From Ulota crispa (Eukaryota > Streptophyta > Bryopsida > Orthotrichales > Orthotrichaceae): 64,000 nt of DNA. The notes beneath the pieces are model-generated. The model did no database searches, was not told where the DNA came from, and worked only from the letters and a program-made list of their open reading frames with translations. The stretch covers positions 9,613,219 through 9,677,218 of the forward strand of contig OY987251.1 of NCBI GenBank assembly GCA_963920765.1. The letters are read 5' to 3'. Both the position numbers and the translations under genes were made by a program. Below, piece by piece: positions 250-56,479 of this stretch (within the stretch, counting starts at the first letter, position 1; every line of letters starts with the position of its first letter).

Positions 250-462
250 CTTGTCCAAAGTACCCCTTCTTGCCTAATATCAAAAAATTCTTGATAACTT
301 CTTCATCAAATGTTAGAATGAAAATAAATAAATGCCCGCATATGTTTTGGAATTCCCCACCTTCAATAAAAGTTTCAAAAAATCACACAAACTAGTTTAG
401 TTGTAGGTACATGCCCAAAATCCATTTGTCCCTAAGGGAACATTTGGGCCTTTAGGGATTAA
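250..462. mobile_element. Right end of an approximately 0.9-kb TTAA-type element
   Basis: The stretch from GAATGAAAATAAATAAATGCCC to GGGCCTTTAGGGA followed by TTAA (459-462) matches the right ends of the copies at 2.2-3.1 kb and 56.5-57.4 kb, including the internal palindrome around CATTTGTCCCTAAGGGAACA. The left part is missing or diverged. The first 250 bases hold only AT-rich DNA with short chance reading frames. Confidence 0.5.
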
Positions 463-3141: not shown

Positions 3142-3894
3142 CAATTAAGTTGTGTCTCTCTTAAATTCCCATGACTTTTCAAATGACATTTCACTCTTCC
3201 TTTCCTTGCATTTTCCTCCCCCTTCAAATTTTCAATGACTTTTCACCCTCCCTTTCCATACAATTTTCTTTGCCTCTTTTTGTTTGAATTTCAAAATTTG
3301 GCACTTGACACATGATGCTTTATGATAGAAAATTGTGAACTTGTGGTGAAAATAGAGAATTTTGAAGATTGTGTTATAGTCAGACAAACCACAATTTAAT
3401 ATATAACTTCTAAGCAAAATTTATAATAGAGAATTTAGAAAAAACCGAGTGGCTCTTTACCATACCAATGGATGCCTTTCCTCTCCCTAAACTACCCTCT
3501 CTAATCAGGAATATTGAACTTGTGGTGTTAATAGAGAAATCTGAATATTGCGTGATTAGGTTTTATAATATAGATTTGTGCTCATATCAACTTGGTCATA
3601 CACGAAAGTTATTTTCTTTGAAGAGTCGAGTAAAAGTGTGGGTGTTTGAAGAAATGATGGGCTGAATTACCACCGTGAGGCATTTTGTTTATCATCATGA
3701 GTACAATTTGAAACAATTGGGGGTGAACGTTTAGTGCATATCCTACAACAAAAGCAAATTTTGCAATAAGAAGAAAATTCAAATGTCATCACATATGGCT
3801 TGTTGTCAATGGCTACAAGCATGACCACAACTAATGTGGTATTTTGAAATTAGTTTTCTTTTGTCACAATTATATCCCAAACTTACAGTTATTT
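3142..3894. other. AT-rich spacer with CAATGACTTTTCAC-type short repeats
   Basis: The motif TTCAATGACTTTTCACCCTCC (about 3230) belongs to a short dispersed repeat that recurs at 6.3-6.45 kb and 7.8-7.9 kb. No gene seen. Confidence 0.4.
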
Positions 3895-5480
3895 ACGATG
3901 ATGTGAGAAGTTAGAAATGTAGTCCAAATTGAATGTGAACAGGACTTGGATTGGATTCATTTTGAATAAATTTGAATTTTGTAGAATATTGCAAGGAGTT
4001 GGAAACTTTGCATAAGGTGGCTCTTGCTGTCGATCCTGTTTGAATTTCCCAACTATCCAATTGTAGACACGGGTGACTTCTCAAAAAATTATTTTTGGGC
4101 AATTTGTGTGTGTTAGAAATAGACTAATCAAAACAGTTTTTGTTGCTGAAATGCAGCGATTACTTGGAACTTTGCATATACTAGTCGTTGTTTAACCCGG
4201 CTAAGGACCAAAGTCTCTATGGGAGTAAAATGGATTTTAGGAAGGTTTATACTATTAAGCTTTTTGATTAGCTCTTTTTAAACATTTTTTTGAGAGAGTT
4301 TGCAAGGGTTATAATGGGTTTATTTATTTATTTATTGAAACTGGGTATACCCTTCAAAATTTATGGAGAATTATAGAGGAATTTTATTTGGAGGGGTAGG
4401 CCAGGCATGCCATTTTTTATTGACTTCTCCCAAGGGCAATCAATAAAAACCCTTCATTAAAGTATGTCCATAGCAATAGAGCATTAGATAAATACTTAAT
4501 TGTATTAGATATATGCATTGACTTTTGAATTGTAATAGCTATTAAATTTTCCTTTTTTTCCTTTTTTGTATGGTTGTTAAAAAAGGTAAAGTTTATCAAT
4601 CCACTCTTTGGATTTCTATACATCAAAAGCAATCCTTAGAAGTTGGCTTGCAAAAAACTCCAATGTAGTGTGATCTTCAAGTTTATGTTTGCAATGCAAG
4701 GCCTTGTAAGGTGTGTCCCTTGTCTTTGTTGGGCATGAAAACTTGTGGAAATATGCCTAACAAGATTTAGAGCATGTTGAAAAAATTTGTTTTGCACCCA
4801 TAGTGCAAACAATATTCACAACATGTGGTTAAAAGGAATCAAATTTTTGGGTATAGGTCAATTTTTTTTTGATACTAACTTCAAATGACCATATCTCTCA
4901 ATCATGTAGTCAAACCTCACATAACTTTCACCATATCTTCTTGCATGAATCTAGTGCAAGATCTCATGGTTAAATGTGTACAAAATAGGAAAAAATGGTT
5001 CTTGAAATCAAACAATCAGATATGGCAATTTTGAGTGATTTTTCAAGAAAAAAATGAGTTTGGTCCTTCAGGGGTTAAAGGTACATTTTGAGAAAACATA
5101 AAATGATACACTTGATTATGAAAAGTGAAGGAAAAAAATCCATTTGAATATTTTTGGAGAGTGCCTCCACATCATTTGAAATGGAATCTATGTTCTTGTT
5201 CTACACAATTTTAAGTTCATTTCAAACAAGGTAAAAAATATTGCAAAACCAAGAGAGTCATTAACCAAACATGTGTTGAAGATCATACACGCTCTAAATG
5301 TCTTGATTTCTCTCCCTTGACACTATACATACTCTCTATAACAAGTATTGTTCTAGAGGTCAATACAATTAAGACAAATGCAACCAATTGGTCTCAAATT
5401 GCACAAGGTTAAATGTTTGACTACCAAAGAATATTTTGCATCTTGCCGTACAATGTATAAAGCTTGGTAAATTCTTGGGG
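3895..5480. repeat. Dispersed repeat (copy 1) interrupted by a TTAA element
   Basis: The flanking parts (3895-4195 and 5075-5480) align with 8585-9300: shared strings include GATGTGAGAAGTTAGAAA, TTGGAACTTTGCA, GAGTGCCTCCA and TTGATTTCTCTCC. The middle 879 bp is an insertion missing from copy 2. The repeat's function is not recognised. Confidence 0.7.
4192..5078. mobile_element. TTAA-flanked element with an empty-site control
   Basis: TTAA at 4192-4195 and 5075-5078 bound 879 bp that start CCCGGCTAAGGACC and end GGTCCTTCAGGGG. The related repeat at 8.9 kb has a single TTAA at the same place (8899-8902) and continuous flanks, so this piece inserted into one TTAA and duplicated it. Confidence 0.85.
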
Positions 5481-8400
5481 AAGTCACTCAATGTATTTTT
5501 TGAAAACCGCATGCAATCAAAATCTTTGACCCCTATCTTATATTGTAAAAAATCGATTAAATAGTTTGAAAAAATTATAGGTTGTTTTCTAATATTGAAA
5601 GTTAACATTATGAATTATTAAGAAAACTCTTTGTTTTAAATAATTACTTTCAAATTATGGAAGAAAATAAACACATTGTATAGCTAGAAATTGTTTTTGA
5701 CCCCTATATTATATAGTTATTTATTTACTTATTTATTTGTTTATTTATAAAATTACCAAAAAGTGAAGGCTTGGTCATAGTTTTTGTATACCAAAGTTAA
5801 ATATAATTTTCATTCAAACTCAAATCTTGATAAACATTTGAAGCGAAAATTCAACCATTTTAGTGCAATCTTCAATTGCGTGTTTGGATATCTCGTTGAA
5901 TTTAGTTGAATTCAATTCTTTTTCACATTAAATACATAATAGTTTTCTGAGAACATCCAAAATTTGGAGCTAAATCAAAATTTATTAAAAAGCAAGTAGG
6001 AGGTGAAAAATTTACTTGATCCCATATGGTTTCCAAAGAATACATTGAGTGACCTCCTTGAGAGTATGTCTTGCACATGATTTGCTACATGTGACTTTTC
6101 TATGTGAGTTTTCACTAACTTGCCCTTTCCCTACCTTTTTCTCTCCCTCCACCTTCCTTGGATTTGAAAATTTGAGAAACAGAGAGACACCCAATGCAAC
6201 AAAGAGTTTCAAACTTATAGAAGAGAGTTAAATTTCCAACAACTTTTCATCTTCCCTATCAATGCTTTTTCTTCTCCTTCTCCCTTTTTATGAATTCCAA
6301 TGCTTCACATACAATGTTTTGAAATATTGAATTTGAAAAATCTCAATGACTTTTCACAATTCCAATGACTTTTCACAACTCTAGTGACTTTTCACAATTC
6401 CAATAACTTTTCAAAATTTTCACAATTCAAATGACTTTTCACCCTTCATTTAGGTGCCTTTTCTTATGTTTTCTTCCTCTCTATTAGAATTTGTGATTGT
6501 ATCATGAAACAATTATGTCATGAGACAACACACGCTTCATAATATAGATAAGTTCAAATTTGAAAAATAGAGAAATCCAAGCATTTATGAATGAAGTGAA
6601 GCAAATGGTTAACTTTGAATATCATGTTATTGTTGATTTCAATTTTCTTTTACATACTAATAGGTGCTAATAGAGTGAATAACACTAATAGCACAAATGT
6701 TGTAGTATAGTACAAAATGATGAACATTCAAAATCAAAATTTTGAAAGAGCATGTTTGATTTGAATGTTTTATAATTTTCTTTGCATTTCATTATATTGA
6801 TATAAAAAGTACATTGATTTTAAATGTCAAGATCAAGCTTTAATTAATTTTTTATGTGGAAAATCATATCACGCTTAATAAGGTGGCCATTTGTTCATTA
6901 ATACACATATAGTAATAGCATCCAAATCTTTTTTTAAAAATATTATTGATACTTTTTGGATGTCAAATTTGAATCACTATTTTTTTCCTACATCTATGAT
7001 TCATTGTATTTACTTTCAAGTAATTGTAATTTAGCTACTTTGCAAAGGCAAATAACAAGCAATAACTTGCTACAATTTTTATATAAAGAAAAGCAGTTGC
7101 TAAATAAATTATCTTTTTAATTTACATAATTCAAAGTGCAATAAGATTTGTAATGGGGACCCAATCAATATGAGAATTACACACATGTCAAAATTATTAC
7201 AAATTGATATACATACTTTACATGATATACATAGAATAAACCATCTCCAACCACACCTAAAAATTGCACATTTCAATGAATTTATCCTATACTCTATTAT
7301 ACAAATGGTTACAAAACTTCTTCATAAACTATAAATAGGTGTGACGATTGTATAATTTATAATCAAATATCATTTTAAAACAATATTGTTTATTCTTATG
7401 GTCATGTTGTTCAACGTCCAATTTTCAAATTGACATTGATGTGTTTTTCATGTCCAACACCTCTTTCAAATTTTGTGCAGTAATGTGAATTTTTTTTTTG
7501 TTTACCTAAAAAATATATCTTAGTTTGTTGTGCCATCCTATTTAAAGAACCCCCAAACTACATGTTTAATATTGCACAAGTATGCTTTGCATGCACTTTG
7601 TTACATATGACTTTTCATGTGACCTTTTACAATTTTACCCTCCCTTTCCCTACCTTTCCTCTTTGGCTCTCCCTCCTCTCAAATTTTTTTCCATGCCTTT
7701 TCCTCTTCCTCCCAATTTCAAAATTTGAGGAACATGTAGACACTCAATGTTATACATAGTTTAGAATTTGTAATGTTTTAAAATATCAAATTTGAAAGGT
7801 TCCAATGGCTTTTCATAATTCAAGTGACTTCCAATGAACTTTCACAATTCCAATGACTTTTCACAATGCTAATGAATTTTCACCATCCATTTGGATGCCT
7901 TTTCCTCTCTTTCCCCCCACTCTATGGTGCTATTAGAGAATTATATCATGACACGTCATTATCTCATGACTCATGAGACATTAGATCACAAGACATTATA
8001 TCATGAGACAAACACATATCATGAGTCAAACACATCATGCTTTATAGAGTCCCGGACACAAAGGAGCTCACTAAAACCCCTCCTACACACTCAATTTTTC
8101 ATCAAATCTAAAAGTGATTACATATTTGAAAAGCCTACTACGGGGTTAAAACATATTAGAATTTGAAGGGTTGATTATTCCTAACCCATGCTTTTTATCC
8201 ATGTCAAATGCAATTTTGCACAAATGAATATGCCATATTTAACAACTTTTATCATCATAATCGACAACTTTGTGGTTTTTAACCACCTTTTAGAACTTGA
8301 AATTGTCTCATAAATAGCTAGCCTGTTGTACAATGAGCATATATTGGTGATAAATGGTTGACAAACTTGTAGTGATTTCAAAAGCATTTAAATCATGACT

Positions 8401-8584
8401 TGATGTTTTTTTCAAATGTTTTTTTCTTCTAACACTTCCCCTTATTAGATTTATGTCAAACTTTAATGCAACTTGCCCCTTTTTCTAAGCTTTTCAGATA
8501 TATAATTAGTTTCAGAGTTGATTAATTATTGATTATGTGAAAGAATTTAAAAAAAAAGACTGCTGTCTAAGACTCTATCATAGA
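5481..8584. repeat. AT-rich spacer with a 20-bp tandem motif
   Basis: The motif TTCCAATGACTTTTCACAA is repeated in loose tandem at about 6330-6445 and again at 7795-7885, with derivatives at 6060-6120 and 7600-7640. A second short block of CATGAGACA/ATCATGAG repeats lies at 7945-8035. Otherwise I see no gene, RNA or element boundary. Confidence 0.45.
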
Positions 8585-9300
8585 TAGATGTGAGAAGTTA
8601 GAAACCTAGCTTAAATTGAGTGTGAACATGATTTGGATTGAATTCATTTTGGATAGTGTCAATTTGAAAATTGTTGAATATTGCAAGGAGTTAGAAACTG
8701 ATCTGAAGGTGGCCCCACCCTAACCAAACATAATCCTAATTCATTTGTTCAAATTTCTTAACTATCCAATTGTAGATACAACTAACTTACCAAATAACTA
8801 TTCTTGGGCAATTCTTTTGTGTGCAAGAAATAGATAAGCTAGAATAATTTTTGTGAAATACAGCGGCTATTTGGAACTTTGCAAATGCTAGCCATTGTTT
8901 AAAGGTAAACTTTGAAAAATATCAAATGACACACTCAATTTTAAAAAATAAAGAAAAGAAAAAAACTCCTCATGTGAACATTTTTGTAGAGTGCCTCCAT
9001 ATTTTTTGAAATGGAACCTATGCTCTCTTTGTACACAATTTTTAAGTTACCCTCAAATAGGGTATGAAACAATCCAAGAAAAAGACAATCATTAGCCACA
9101 AATTTCTTGAAGACCATATACACTCAAAAATTTCTTGATTTCTCTCCTTTGACCGTGCATGCTCTCTGTAGTGAATTTTGTTTATGAGGTCCAACACAAT
9201 TGTGACTGATGTAGCCTATTGGTCTCAAATTGCACAAGATTAATTGTTTGACGACTAGAGAATATTTTGCCTCTTGCCATGTAGCGTAGGGAGCTTAGTA
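8585..9300. repeat. Dispersed repeat (copy 2), uninterrupted
   Basis: Homologous to 3895-4195 plus 5075-5480 and carrying the empty TTAA target at 8899-8902. From 9301 to 10641 I see only AT-rich DNA without recognisable features. Confidence 0.65.
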
Positions 9301-10641
9301 CACTTTTCAACTTTTTTTTTTTGTATAGACTTTTTTCCTAAGAAGAAAATATTAATTTTTGCAACATTTTTTTGTTTTCTTGGGGAAAGAGAGTGCATGT
9401 TTGCACTTTTTTATACCTCACTAGGTGCTCAAAACTTTTTGTTCCTCACAAAAAGACTTGAGTTTGCATGGAATGATTAATTTTTTTTCAAAAATAACAT
9501 CTAAAAAATTGTGTTTTCTCCAAGGTTTGAAATTCCCTTTTACCTCACAATTGCTTAACCCCCAAAGCTCAAAGGGTGTTTCAGAAGAAGAAAAGTCCAA
9601 GACTGCACTTTTTGATGATTTATTCAAAATCAAAAATCAAAACTAACTTTTTGAGTTTCCATTGTACCAAAGAGTAATATACAAGTAAGGCAATGTGTGA
9701 AAATAAGTTAAGCCATTTGACCACGTGGATTAAAAGATTATAACATTCAAATCTTCACAAAAAAAAATTTGACCGTGCCCAAAAGGGACATCTGACTTTG
9801 AGCCCACTTAGCTGAAATTTTTTGCTCTATACAAACTCAAGGATTTAGGGCATTCATAAGTGTGTGATGTTAGGTTCAATCATGCAAATTTTTTGATGCA
9901 ATTGAGATGTCTAACTCACTCAAAATGAGCTTGCAATACAAGGTGGTCAAAGAAAATAACTATGTGCTAGCCAATTTTTAGAAATTTTTTGCAAAGTCAA
10001 AAAAAATTCTTTCAAATCCAAACAATGAAATGATGTAACCCCATATCTCCTACAAACATGATGTTTTTTAAGAAAATTTCTAAAGCATGCAAAGTTATGC
10101 TAGTTCAAGCTTTGCAACTATCCATAATCTTCAAATCTCCTTCATGAATAAAGCATGTTCACCATTGTCATGTCTAGTAGAAAGAAAACACTCCGCAAAG
10201 TCCCTTGCCAAGTCTCCCGCCAAAACTTCCGCCATGACCTTCACCTAGACTCCCACCAAGATTACTATGGAAGCTAATTTTGGGCAGATTCTTTTCTTCA
10301 CTACTCTCTATTTGCAACAAGTTGTCCAAGAAATTTGCATAATTTCAAGCATCATAATTTTTTACTCAGGCAATTGATTGGAGGTTTTTTTTTTCACATG
10401 AAGGTATTCACTGTATGCACCTTGTCTCCAAATTTCAAAAACATCTGCCTACAATTAACTTCATAGGAACCTACCCAAATTTTCAATTGTCTGTTGAACA
10501 AACAATTGTCCTTTTGGGGTAAAAAATGTTACACAAATATGTTATATCTTTTTAAGGGGCAAAAGAAGCTCAAAAATATGGAGTACAAGCCTTTTTGTGC
10601 AAAATCCTTGCAATGTAAACCAAAGAGATAAAAAAACCATG

Positions 10642-25936: not shown

Positions 25937-26741
25937 TTAACCCCTAAATGCCCAAGGCACCCAATTTGGGTGTTTGCAAAACTTTGAAGACTAATGAAAC
26001 CTTATCAAATCTTTATTTTTGGTATTTTCTTGTAAACACAAGTTTGTTTTGAAGTCTATTTTCAACATCAAAAATTTGATTTAAAAAATGAATATTGATG
26101 ATTTTTCTACTCAAGATTTTGTACAAGGGTGTCCGCTGCAATCTTGAGTTTTCTAATGTTGGAAGAACTTGAAAATGAGTCTCAAATACACTAGAGCTTG
26201 GAGAAAAATCCGCATTAAAAATCCATTTAAAAAAATAAGTGAGTGGATCTTGAAAACCATAAATTGACTAAAGTTAAACATGTAATGACCTTAAATCTCA
26301 TATTTTTTTGATGACCAACTTTTTAGATTTGACATGTGAAATGAAGATTAGAAAACTTCAAGTCACTTTTGCAGTTTTAATACCCTCATGTTCAAACGTT
26401 ATAGTTTTTCAAACTATAAAATGTGTTATTCATTAAATTGGGAAAAGTGGCATTTTGGGACTTTTGGATTATATGTTTTCTAAAGAGTATTCAATGAGTA
26501 CTCTTTAGAAAACATAAAATCCAAAAGTCCCAAAATGCCACTTTTCCCAATTTAATGAATAACGTGTTATAAGTGATATTGTTGTGTTTTCTTTTTCCAT
26601 GTAATCTCTAACATGTCACGTTTAAATGTGTACGGTTACATTTAAAAAAAACTTGATGAGATTTATGAAAAGATTGGTTGATTGTTCACTTTCCTAAAAA
26701 TGCCAAGAAATTCAGAAAGGCCTTGGGCATTTAGCGATTAA
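25937..26741. mobile_element. TTAA-flanked element carrying a nested MITE
   Basis: TTAA (25937-25940) + CCCCTAAATGCCCAAGG and the right end CCTTGGGCATTTAGCGA + TTAA (26738-26741) are inverted ends. The body is the reverse-orientation relative of 463-959. The extra length is partly explained by the 149-bp MITE inserted at 26420-26568. Confidence 0.7.
26420..26568. mobile_element. Near-perfect palindromic MITE (TSD ATAA), nested
   Basis: The whole 149 bp is an inverted repeat: GTTATTCATTAAATTGGG and then AAAGTGGCATTTTGGGACTT on the left mirror the right half. It is flanked by ATAA at 26416-26419 and 26569-26572. It shares its termini with the copies at 18.4, 27.2, 36.1 and 45.5 kb and sits inside the TTAA element 25937-26741. 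Confidence 0.85.
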
Positions 26742-51859: not shown

Positions 51860-53205
51860 TTTTTTTTGGACAATTTAAGGCTCAATTGCCTCAAAAGAAT
51901 AGGCTAGTCTCAAGCTTATAGGAAAAAAAGGGGGAATTTTTTCCAAAAAATGCCAAATTGCAATAATAAAAATTGAGTTGTAGCCTAGGTTTTCATAAAA
52001 TTCTTATCAAATTGTAAATTGATGCCATCATTTTAAAATTATATGAGCATTTAAATTTTTTTTGAGTTGTTGCCTAATCCAATTCAAGACAATACTTAAC
52101 CCCTAAAATTCTTTTGTGTTTAGAGGTACAAAACTGCTTCAAAATGCTAGTCTCCAAACTAGGGTCAAAATCTTCATTGAAACTTATTTTTTAACAAATC
52201 CAACCGTAGGATCCTTTGGTTGACTTGCACAAGTACATTGTCCCAAAATTTCAGAATGAATATCCCCACCAATTGCAAGATCAATGTGCCTAAACTTCAA
52301 AATGTAGGCTTTTCTAGTCCTTCCAAAAGGTGAAATTTTGTTTTTCAAACTTTATAGAAAAAACACATAAGTTGTATTTCTTGTGCAATTTTTGCAATAT
52401 GTCGGAAAATGGGTTGAAAGCTCATATAAAAAAATTTAACCAAAAAAAATTGGATTCATTTTTACAAAAATTGTAAAGTGAAAGGTATTGATGAATGAAA
52501 GCTATAACTAATATGCTAATAAGTTTTGGAAGAATTTGAAAATTGTTAATCCCAATGGTGAGAATGCTCTAACAGACAATTAGTAACTTTATTTTTCATT
52601 TTCATTTGTAATTTTTCAACATTGAGAGTAAAAGATAACTTTATATATGTTTTTCCTACCCTCTTCCTACCTTCATTGCTCGCAAAAGAAAATTCCTTGT
52701 AACTCTTACCTCATTATTTGGAATTGAGTGATTCAATTTTTTGAGTAGGTACCAATCTATACAATTCTATAAAAAAAATTTAAAAAAAATTAGAATATAA
52801 TTTCTGTTGCCCGGTTTGACATTGAAATTGAAAAAGCCTTCTAACTTTTGCATTACTTATTGGAATGACATGAAATAAAGCTTCACATGTAGATTATGAT
52901 GAGTAGCATCCATCCTAAAAAATTTATGAAAAAATTCCAAACTATGAAGTCAATAGAGCCTGCCTAAGTTCTCATAAAGTCCAAAGTGGGTTCCTTGGGC
53001 CTTTAGGGGTTAAGTGATGGCAAGAGTTATTTGGATGTTTTTCAAAAAATGACCAATGAATATTTTTTTACCTAAAAAAGAAACCCATGATGCTCCAAAA
53101 ATCCATGCATAGGAGCCACCTTCAACTCCAACAAAAATAGGGACAAAGCCAGCAAGCTACAAACCATTTTCAAAAAATGCCACAGTCATTTCAGGCATTT
53201 TTTTT
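51860..53205. repeat. Dispersed repeat split by a TTAA element; empty paralogue at 55.8-56.2 kb
   Basis: 51860-52095 and 53014-53205 together align in reverse complement with 55805-56225 (GGCTTGAGGCTAGCC, ATTGCAATCTGGCATTTTTTGG, AAAAATGACCAATGAATATT on opposite strands). From 51560 to 51860 nothing is recognised. Confidence 0.75.
52096..53013. mobile_element. TTAA-flanked element with an empty-site control
   Basis: TTAA (52096-52099) + CCCCTAAAATTC at the left and GGGCCTTTAGGGG + TTAA (53010-53013) at the right enclose 910 bp. The paralogous sequence at 55.99 kb has one TTAA (55995-55998) between the same flanks, so the insertion and its 4-bp duplication are shown directly. Confidence 0.88.
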
Positions 53206-54816: not shown

Positions 54817-56479
54817 TTAACCCCTAAAGGACCAAGCCCTTTTTTTTGTAAAAGTCATTGAAAATTGCCACTTTTTGGGGAATGAGTAGAAAGGTAAAAA
54901 ATATAGTTCTTTTTGAAAACCCAACCGTAGGATCTTGCCCTAGACTACTAGGTTAGCTTGTGGAAAAAAATTAGGTCATTTTGCATTGAGTAGAGTGAGA
55001 TATTCACATGTGAAGTGAAGAAAAAAAGTTTTTTTCACTACTACCCAAATTTTTCAAAAGCCTTTGACCGCTCCTATTGCAAAAAAAGTTACTCCATGCA
55101 AATGTGAGGTTTATTTTTCCCATGTAAAGTTCCAAGTTTGGTATGTGTGGGAAAATTTTCAAATCAATTAAAGGTGTGCAACACACTTCAAAAATCTTGC
55201 AATGGAAGAAGGTCCTAAAAAATGCAAATACACTATGCAAAATTGGGGACTTTATGTAAAATTCAGAAATTCAAATTACCTTGATCCAAATGGTGCAAAG
55301 CAAGAAATCTTAACTTCAAACAAATTGGAAAAAAAAACCCTAACTCAAATGAGTTTACTGCTCAAAATGAAAAAAAATTAAAATTTAGCAAGCAGGCAGG
55401 GTTTTAAGGGCCATGAGGATGGGCCCTATTTGCCCCCATTCCCCATCCCCTAGTTGAAGCCCCACCATCCCACATGAGGGCCACGTGGTGGGCACTGTGA
55501 TATTGCCTTCTTGTGTAACTGCCAACGGGGGAGCTTTTTGAATTTTGATGCAGGTTCTCCACTCTTGCTCCCCTCAAGTCCCGACAGTGAAGTTCATGTT
55601 CCCCTCACGTTCTTACGTTATAATTTTGTTCCCCTGTTGTTTTTCATCCCCTCTCCCCCTCCAAAGCCGGACCTTTCAGGCCGGTATCAATAATGGGTCT
55701 AACAACAAATCCTCTAAAATTGCTGCCCAAACAACTGCTAACCCTGCCCTTGGTGAGCTGCCCTTGTGGGAGTCAACATCCACATATAGAGTTTTTTTTA
55801 TTTGGTTTTCTCACTGATGCTTGGGTGGCATTTTTTGAAAATGGTTTGTAGCTTACTAGCTTTGTCCCTATTTTGGTTGGAGTTGTAGGTGGCCCCTATG
55901 TATGGATTTTTGAAGCATCATGGGTTTTTTTTTGTAGGTAAAAGAATATTCATTGGTCATTTTTTGAAAACATCCAAATAATTCTTGCCATCACTTAAGT
56001 ATTGTATTGAATTGGATTAGGCAACACCTCAAAAAGATTAAAATGCTCGGATAATTTTAAAATGATGGGCATCAATTTACAATTTGATAAGACTTTTATG
56101 AAAGCTTAGGCTACAACTCGATTTTTATTATTGCAATCTGGCATTTTTTGGAAAAAATTCCCCCTTTTTTTCCTATAGGCTTGAGGCTAGCCTATTTTTT
56201 TGAGGCAATTGGGCCTTAAATTGCCCAGAAAAAAACACACTATCCACATGCAAAGGGGAGGAGCTGCCCGGGCTGCCCCATCTCCACCTTTTTTCAAAGA
56301 TAGTTGCATAACTTCTTTGCCAAATGTCAGAATGAAGAAAGATTTGAATGACCACGTAGTTCTCTCAATTCCCACTTTTATGAAAAGTTTCAAAAAAAAC
56401 TGTAAACTAGAAAATCTGAAGTTACATGCGCAAAGTACCACTTGTCCCACGAGGGGACGATTGGTCCTTTAGGGTTTAA
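54817..56479. mobile_element. 0.9-kb TTAA-type element enlarged by insertions
   Basis: TTAA (54817-54820) + CCCCTAAAGGACCAAGCCC and the right end GATTGGTCCTTTAGGGT + TTAA (56476-56479) are a matched pair, and both outer portions align with the family. The middle (about 55390-56245) is foreign and includes the repeat segment 55805-56225 that supplies the empty site for 52096-53013. Confidence 0.65.

Follow-up and report, generated by a model that had tools for sequence, protein, structure and literature searches.

TTAA-targeting elements and the Ulota crispa insert

piggyBac, a mainstay of genome engineering, is known mainly from animals, insects among them. Terminal inverted repeats that start with CCC directly after TTAA are typical of piggyBac, and the ends of the Trichoplusia ni element start in this way; TTAA is also the target of Sola3. 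The active-site residues of piggyBac are given as D268, D346 and D447 (PMC7351741). Excerpts of the literature name insects, fungi and plants as sources from which piggyBac was isolated (PMC10813416), count PiggyBac among the angiosperm MITE superfamilies (PMC10004981), and list 1,230 PiggyBac copies, amounting to 0.12 Mb, in the repeat table of Ceratopteris (PMC6890710) and one copy in that of Stipa (PMC8319324). In the available portions of the openly licensed literature, surveyed non-exhaustively, native piggyBac in plants appears, besides engineering use, only in review or abstract mentions and repeat-table entries. The original prediction held that piggyBac and Kolobok are not known to be standard in land plant genomes; piggyBac is indeed unusual in plants, but it is not unreported there (excerpts of PMC10004981 and PMC6890710). 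Because plant piggyBac has been listed before, the kind of element is known and its abundance is the notable part here.

Within the window, a 64,000-nucleotide stretch of the U. crispa genome that was analysed as a whole, one copy of a repeat is interrupted by an insert that is like piggyBac and piggyBat in its TTAA target, the duplication of that target and its CCC-starting ends; unlike them, it sits in a plant host and is without a long open frame. The transposases of this genome have in common with piggyBac and piggyBat the DDE_Tnp_1_7 domain along with the VTVDE and VTCDN motifs and, at locus L071, GGVDVADQ; they are distant from the solved piggyBac (E 4e-20), and the L069 frame has N at what is, by motif, the third D. 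Coral CMITEs are comparable in being small and non-coding, in their link to piggyBac-like transposition and in their tandem or end-to-end copies, and are described in the available text as more conserved in the interior than at the ends, whereas here a 56-bp right end is common to elements that otherwise do not align to the insert (PMC2872659). The Xenopus T2-MITEs of the Kolobok superfamily, as excerpted, share the TTAA target and the organization as a MITE family with many subfamilies; their ends read AGGRR, against CCC here (PMC6004289). Very probably, the insert is an old MITE-like element of the piggyBac superfamily, itself non-coding and moved by a transposase encoded elsewhere in the genome.

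A filled and an empty copy of one host repeat

Each flank of the insert was aligned separately to the region 8500-9500, with 200 shuffles for each flank. The left flank (3832-4195) aligned to 8503-8902 with a score of 328 (shuffle maximum 113), and the right flank (5075-5676) to 8899-9500 with a score of 464 (shuffle maximum 192). The overlap of the two alignments on the relative is a single TTAA and nothing else, and the filled site carries TTAA on both sides of the insert (Table 1). The alignment of 3895-5480 with 8585-9300 thus holds around 4192, 5078 and 8899, and the originally predicted arrangement, an 879-bp insert bounded by TTAA with one TTAA in the relative, is confirmed exactly. The common host repeat lies at ~3900-5476 and ~8587-9307, near the limits first predicted. 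Inverted ends, TTAACCCGGCTAAGGACCAAA and TTAACCCCTGAAGGACCAAAC, are present, short and imperfect; the arms at 4203-4215 and 5056-5068 are 92% complementary.

Table 1. Coordinates of the insert, its host repeat and two further filled sites within the window
Feature	Position	Strand	Remarks
Non-autonomous piggyBac-type element, including both TTAA copies	4192..5078	+	887 bp; 879 bp between the TTAA copies
Left TTAA, target copy	4192..4195	.	
Right TTAA, target copy	5075..5078	.	
Left terminal inverted repeat	4196..4215	+	CCCGGCTAAGGACCAAAGTC
Right terminal inverted repeat	5055..5074	-	CCCCTGAAGGACCAAACTCA, inward reading
Last 56 bp of the insert	5023..5078	-	77-82% to window 54817-54870, L004, L012, L019, L051 and L072
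Host repeat that was hit, left part	3895..4191	+	flank alignment
Host repeat that was hit, right part	5079..5480	+	flank alignment
Host-repeat relative without the insert	8585..9307	+	flank alignment
Single TTAA of the empty site	8899..8902	.	
Second filled site, element	52096..53013	+	918 bp; L019 and a place near window 55995-55998 are empty relatives with one TTAA each
Third filled site, element	25937..26741	+	805 bp; empty relative L003 reads TCAA; L076 not clean

Further filled and empty pairs

Further pairs were sought in the window and in the fetched loci, which cover ~296 kb of the genome besides the window. The search gave 33 rows; from these and the original case, with same-locus rows left out, 23 pairs representing 12 elements were compared. 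In six of the 23 pairs, from four of the 12 elements, both flanks extend to the site and exactly TTAA lies between them. Besides the original case, clean pairs are formed by L019 1501-2421 with window ~56058 and again with a place near window 52000, by the second filled site of the window (52096-53013) with window ~55996 and with L019, and by L025 1265-1504 with L046. Two more pairs, from two elements, retain four letters with one substitution between the flanks: window 25937-26741 against L003 (TCAA), and L026 1501-2425 against the window (TAAA), the latter with a right flank that aligned over 33 columns only.

The other 15 pairs are not clean, and six of the 12 elements are without a clean empty site. 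The third filled site of the window (25937-26741) meets TAAAAA in L076; L026 was compared with two places in L022; the site of L032 reads, across four relatives, either ATTGGAG or TTGA or TTGG with unaligned bases after it. Both flanks of L034 were placed on one spot in the window, and L025 finds TTAA plus five unaligned bases in L004 and 24 intervening bases in the window. The L008 and L044 pairs are unreadable. For L016 (1256-1497) against L036 (691-984), the matching flanks are separated in the relative by 52 bases, TTAA first, in one orientation, and by 55 in the other; about 48 bases could have been lost at insertion, or gained or otherwise changed on a small scale in the relative. Extra deleted bases, against which the original prediction had cautioned, are found in none of the eight readable pairs, the L016/L036 pair with its possible ~48 bases standing apart.

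The target is TTAA

The cut position within TTAA cannot be read from a single pair, and an element ending in A...T would also leave TTAA if its superfamily targeted TA, as Tc1/mariner does, or TAA/TTA, as PIF/Harbinger does; TAA/TTA is the Tourist duplication in the available text of PMC10004981. Termini were counted genome-wide. Perfect termini TTAACCCCTAAAGGACCAA number 4,495 (2,282 + 2,213), and the same terminus with A, C or G as the outermost base occurs 208 times (107 + 101); T thus takes the outermost place in 4,495 of 4,703 (95.6%). Under a TA or TAA target this outermost base would be free to vary; since T is kept, all four letters of TTAA belong to the target, and the shorter TA and TAA were rejected. 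Among 50 termini collected without requiring TTAA, the motif is intact in 38, its four columns being kept in 45, 46, 43 and 44 termini, and the four bases directly beyond it are mixed. We regard a Tc1/mariner- or PIF/Harbinger-type origin as scarcely credible. The pair in the window had been offered as proof of TTAA specificity; a TTAA target with its duplication holds there and in other elements, but a single pair does not amount to proof, and the specificity is carried by the genome-wide counts.

A large family of short non-coding elements

The insert is short (887 bp), non-coding, present in many copies and bounded by inverted ends, as a MITE is. It overlaps no open reading frame of at least 150 aa, and searches for transfer RNA genes and Rfam matches found none. 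A DNA search of the genome with the insert gave 1,034 candidates; the 40 that were scored comprise the insert itself and 39 others, and these relatives are 71-74% identical across the aligned parts, and this copy therefore looks old. Termini TTAACCCYTAAA occur 39,919 times genome-wide versus 792 in the reversed control, ends of the form TTAACCCN{3,6}AAGGACCAAA 860 times versus 0 in the reversed control, and, when up to two mismatches are allowed, ends TTAACCCCTAAAGGACCAAA 16,075 times versus 2 in the control. If each element has two ends and spans 0.7-1 kb, rough arithmetic would give perhaps ~20,000 elements, or ~6% of 275 Mb.

The interiors of the elements differ and their ends are common. 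Elements that carry the 56-bp right end of the insert are otherwise without alignment to it, and this end is a probable transposase-binding end.

Two candidates for autonomous elements were rejected. C1:28169556-28171356 (L053), taken as a long autonomous copy, is in fact two adjacent MITE-sized elements. Termini of the AAAGAGCCC type are paired in L041-L044 and L050 with a different end, TTAACCCCTAAGCGTC, ~780 bp away. These loci represent a separate ~780 bp family whose termini are unlike, one TTAACCCCTAAAGGACCAAAGAGCCC-like and the other TTAACCCCTAAGCGTCTTGC-like; within an element they agree over only about the first eleven letters. A B3 domain, which is plant-specific, is present in L043.

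piggyBac transposases in the same genome

The genome contains at least 120 matches to PF13843 (DDE_Tnp_1_7, the piggyBac transposase family), 116 of 528 candidates having been scored; all 120 listed matches exceed the cut-off, the best at E 1.3e-73, and matches were found in none of 14 control genomes. Of the 120 rows, 110 contain in-frame stops and ten are stop-free. The stop-free frame P0001 (L069) matches PF13843 at 8e-60 and, among solved structures, the T. ni piggyBac 6x67 at 4.1e-20 and piggyBat 9c0f at 5.8e-17. Both frames that were read (L069 and L071) hold VTVDE and VTCDN around the first two catalytic aspartates; the region of the third, a position assigned by motif, reads GGVDVADQ in L071 and GGVNVGDQ in L069, with N for the third D.

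No sequence common to the insert and any transposase frame was found. Matches to the insert within transposase loci comprise 126 bp in the L056 flank and the 56-bp end in the L072 flank.

Open frames lie upstream of the transposase in L069 (929-1990) and L071 (399-1651): one of 354 aa without a Pfam match in the former, and two of 299 and 211 aa in the latter. At the DNA level L069 and L071 are 66% identical over 359 columns, and a second gene, or else a long 5' region, may be part of the full elements. Separately, transposase matches form three oppositely oriented pairs with equal or nearly equal scores (C2:36765124/36779670, C7:18203169/18223004 and C10:676128/785346, spaced about 15, 20 and 109 kb, respectively); they may reflect large inverted duplications or effects of the assembly.

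Ends of transposase-bearing copies

The located ends of transposase-bearing copies read TTAACCC and are mostly TTAACCCTTTAANGACC-like. Between L054 and L063 an identity of 90% extends as far as 4003/4002, at most one base from the terminus TTAACCCTTCATTGCC, and the alignment of L071 5531-5845 with L074 4928-5235 stops five bases before the outer edge of TTGACCCTTTAAGGACCGTGG and TTAATCCTTTAACGACCGTGG. The ends of L069 and L058 (in L077), TTAACCCTTTAGCGACCATGG and TTAACCCTTTAATGACCATGG, were located by motif. Compared with the MITE end TTAACCCCTAAAGGACC, the right ends of L071, L074, L069 and L058 agree at 13-14 of 17 letters, with L071 at 14. Candidate left ends of L071 lie, by motif only, at 187 and 195 (TTAACCCATTAACCCATTAAGGATC), which would make the full element ~5.7 kb long; no end was established within the 1.5-kb flanks of L055-L057, L060-L062 and L064-L068.

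With up to two mismatches allowed, the end TTAACCCTTTAANGACCRTGG is counted 2,705 times against 4. Proximity of ends to transposases was assessed with 109 rows; of the 120, seven on C9-C11 fell beyond the tested stretch, and four were dropped as second fragments of copies already represented. Of the 109, 93 lay inside the stretch spanned by the 100 perfect TTAACCCTTTAANGACCRTGG termini listed. Among these 100 sites, a perfect TTAACCCTTTAANGACCRTGG within 3 kb downstream and facing inward accompanies four of the 93 matches, one of them L058, against an expectation of 0.057; outward-facing termini accompany none, and no TTAACCCTTTAANGACCRTGG end lies within 4 kb on the 5' side of any of the 93.

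These ends bear on two other TTAA superfamilies. Kolobok, which the original prediction had named beside piggyBac, fits the TTAA target; its ends, however, are defined as RR, with AG in Xenopus, in the available text of PMC6004289, and those seen here start with CCC in a genome abundant in piggyBac transposase matches, PF13843 being the one transposase family searched, so that Kolobok is disfavoured and, in our judgement, highly unlikely, and piggyBac is the candidate that stands, by its transposase matches and TTAACCC ends. A Sola3-type or undescribed TTAA superfamily could alternatively have moved this family while coexisting with piggyBac: the search for transposases, which covered PF13843 only, did not reveal the exact partner of the CCCCTAAAGGACC ends. 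No transposase-bearing copy with exact CCCCTAAAGGACCAA ends was found, the closest right ends differing at 3-4 of 17 positions. The closeness of the MITE ends to those of the piggyBac-bearing copies speaks against such a coexisting superfamily, and we give it very little weight.

The insert itself has TTAA duplicated on insertion, followed by terminal inverted repeats that start with CCC, as in piggyBac. Movement by piggyBac would proceed as follows: a transposase from elsewhere in the genome would bind the related ends of the element, cut it out and join it to a target TTAA, leaving TTAA on both sides. One of the transposase lineages found here presumably moved this very family, and, by analogy with piggyBac, the reaction would use hairpin and seamless excision chemistry.

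At three ends near transposase-bearing copies (L071 187-202, L076 221-236 and L070 6005-6013) the TTAACCC motif occurs twice, eight bases apart, as in TTAACCCATTAACCCATTAAGG, with a letter changed once or twice; the pattern suggests a duplicated terminus or renewed use of an earlier TTAA.

Abundance and end-to-end stacking

Elements also stand back to back with one common TTAA. When up to two mismatches are allowed, 1,025 sites fit the junction CTTTAGGGGTTAACCCCTAAAG, and none does in the reversed control; by rough arithmetic, random choice of TTAA would give ~200 junctions, a count that is not like for like with the 1,025. No clear excess of junctions is seen in the window (one among 16 terminus sites) or in 12 longer loci (none among 28). 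The coral piggyBac-linked MITEs are described as forming tandem arrays, to which the end-to-end junctions of this genome are a parallel (PMC2872659, available text).

The abundance of piggyBac in this plant is unusual. We suggest, tentatively and as something a little short of probable, that piggyBac, usually scarce in plants, became one of the major DNA transposons here, with perhaps 20,000 MITE-sized copies, several families that share ends and >100 transposase copies of several lineages, and that it landed on the TTAA of earlier copies and so built end-to-end stacks. If true, the tens of thousands of piggyBac-type ends and >100 transposase matches would mean that the superfamily can thrive in plants, and the genome would supply plant-derived transposases and natural filled and empty sites for studies of TTAA targeting.

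Examples of back-to-back junctions are found at window 459-462, L016 1256-1501 and L025 1265-1504; at L025 an element sits within such a junction, and the same junction is empty in L046. Elsewhere in the window, a 19-base unit (CAATGACTTTTCACAATTC-like) forms short tandem arrays at 6325-6436 and 7784-7905.
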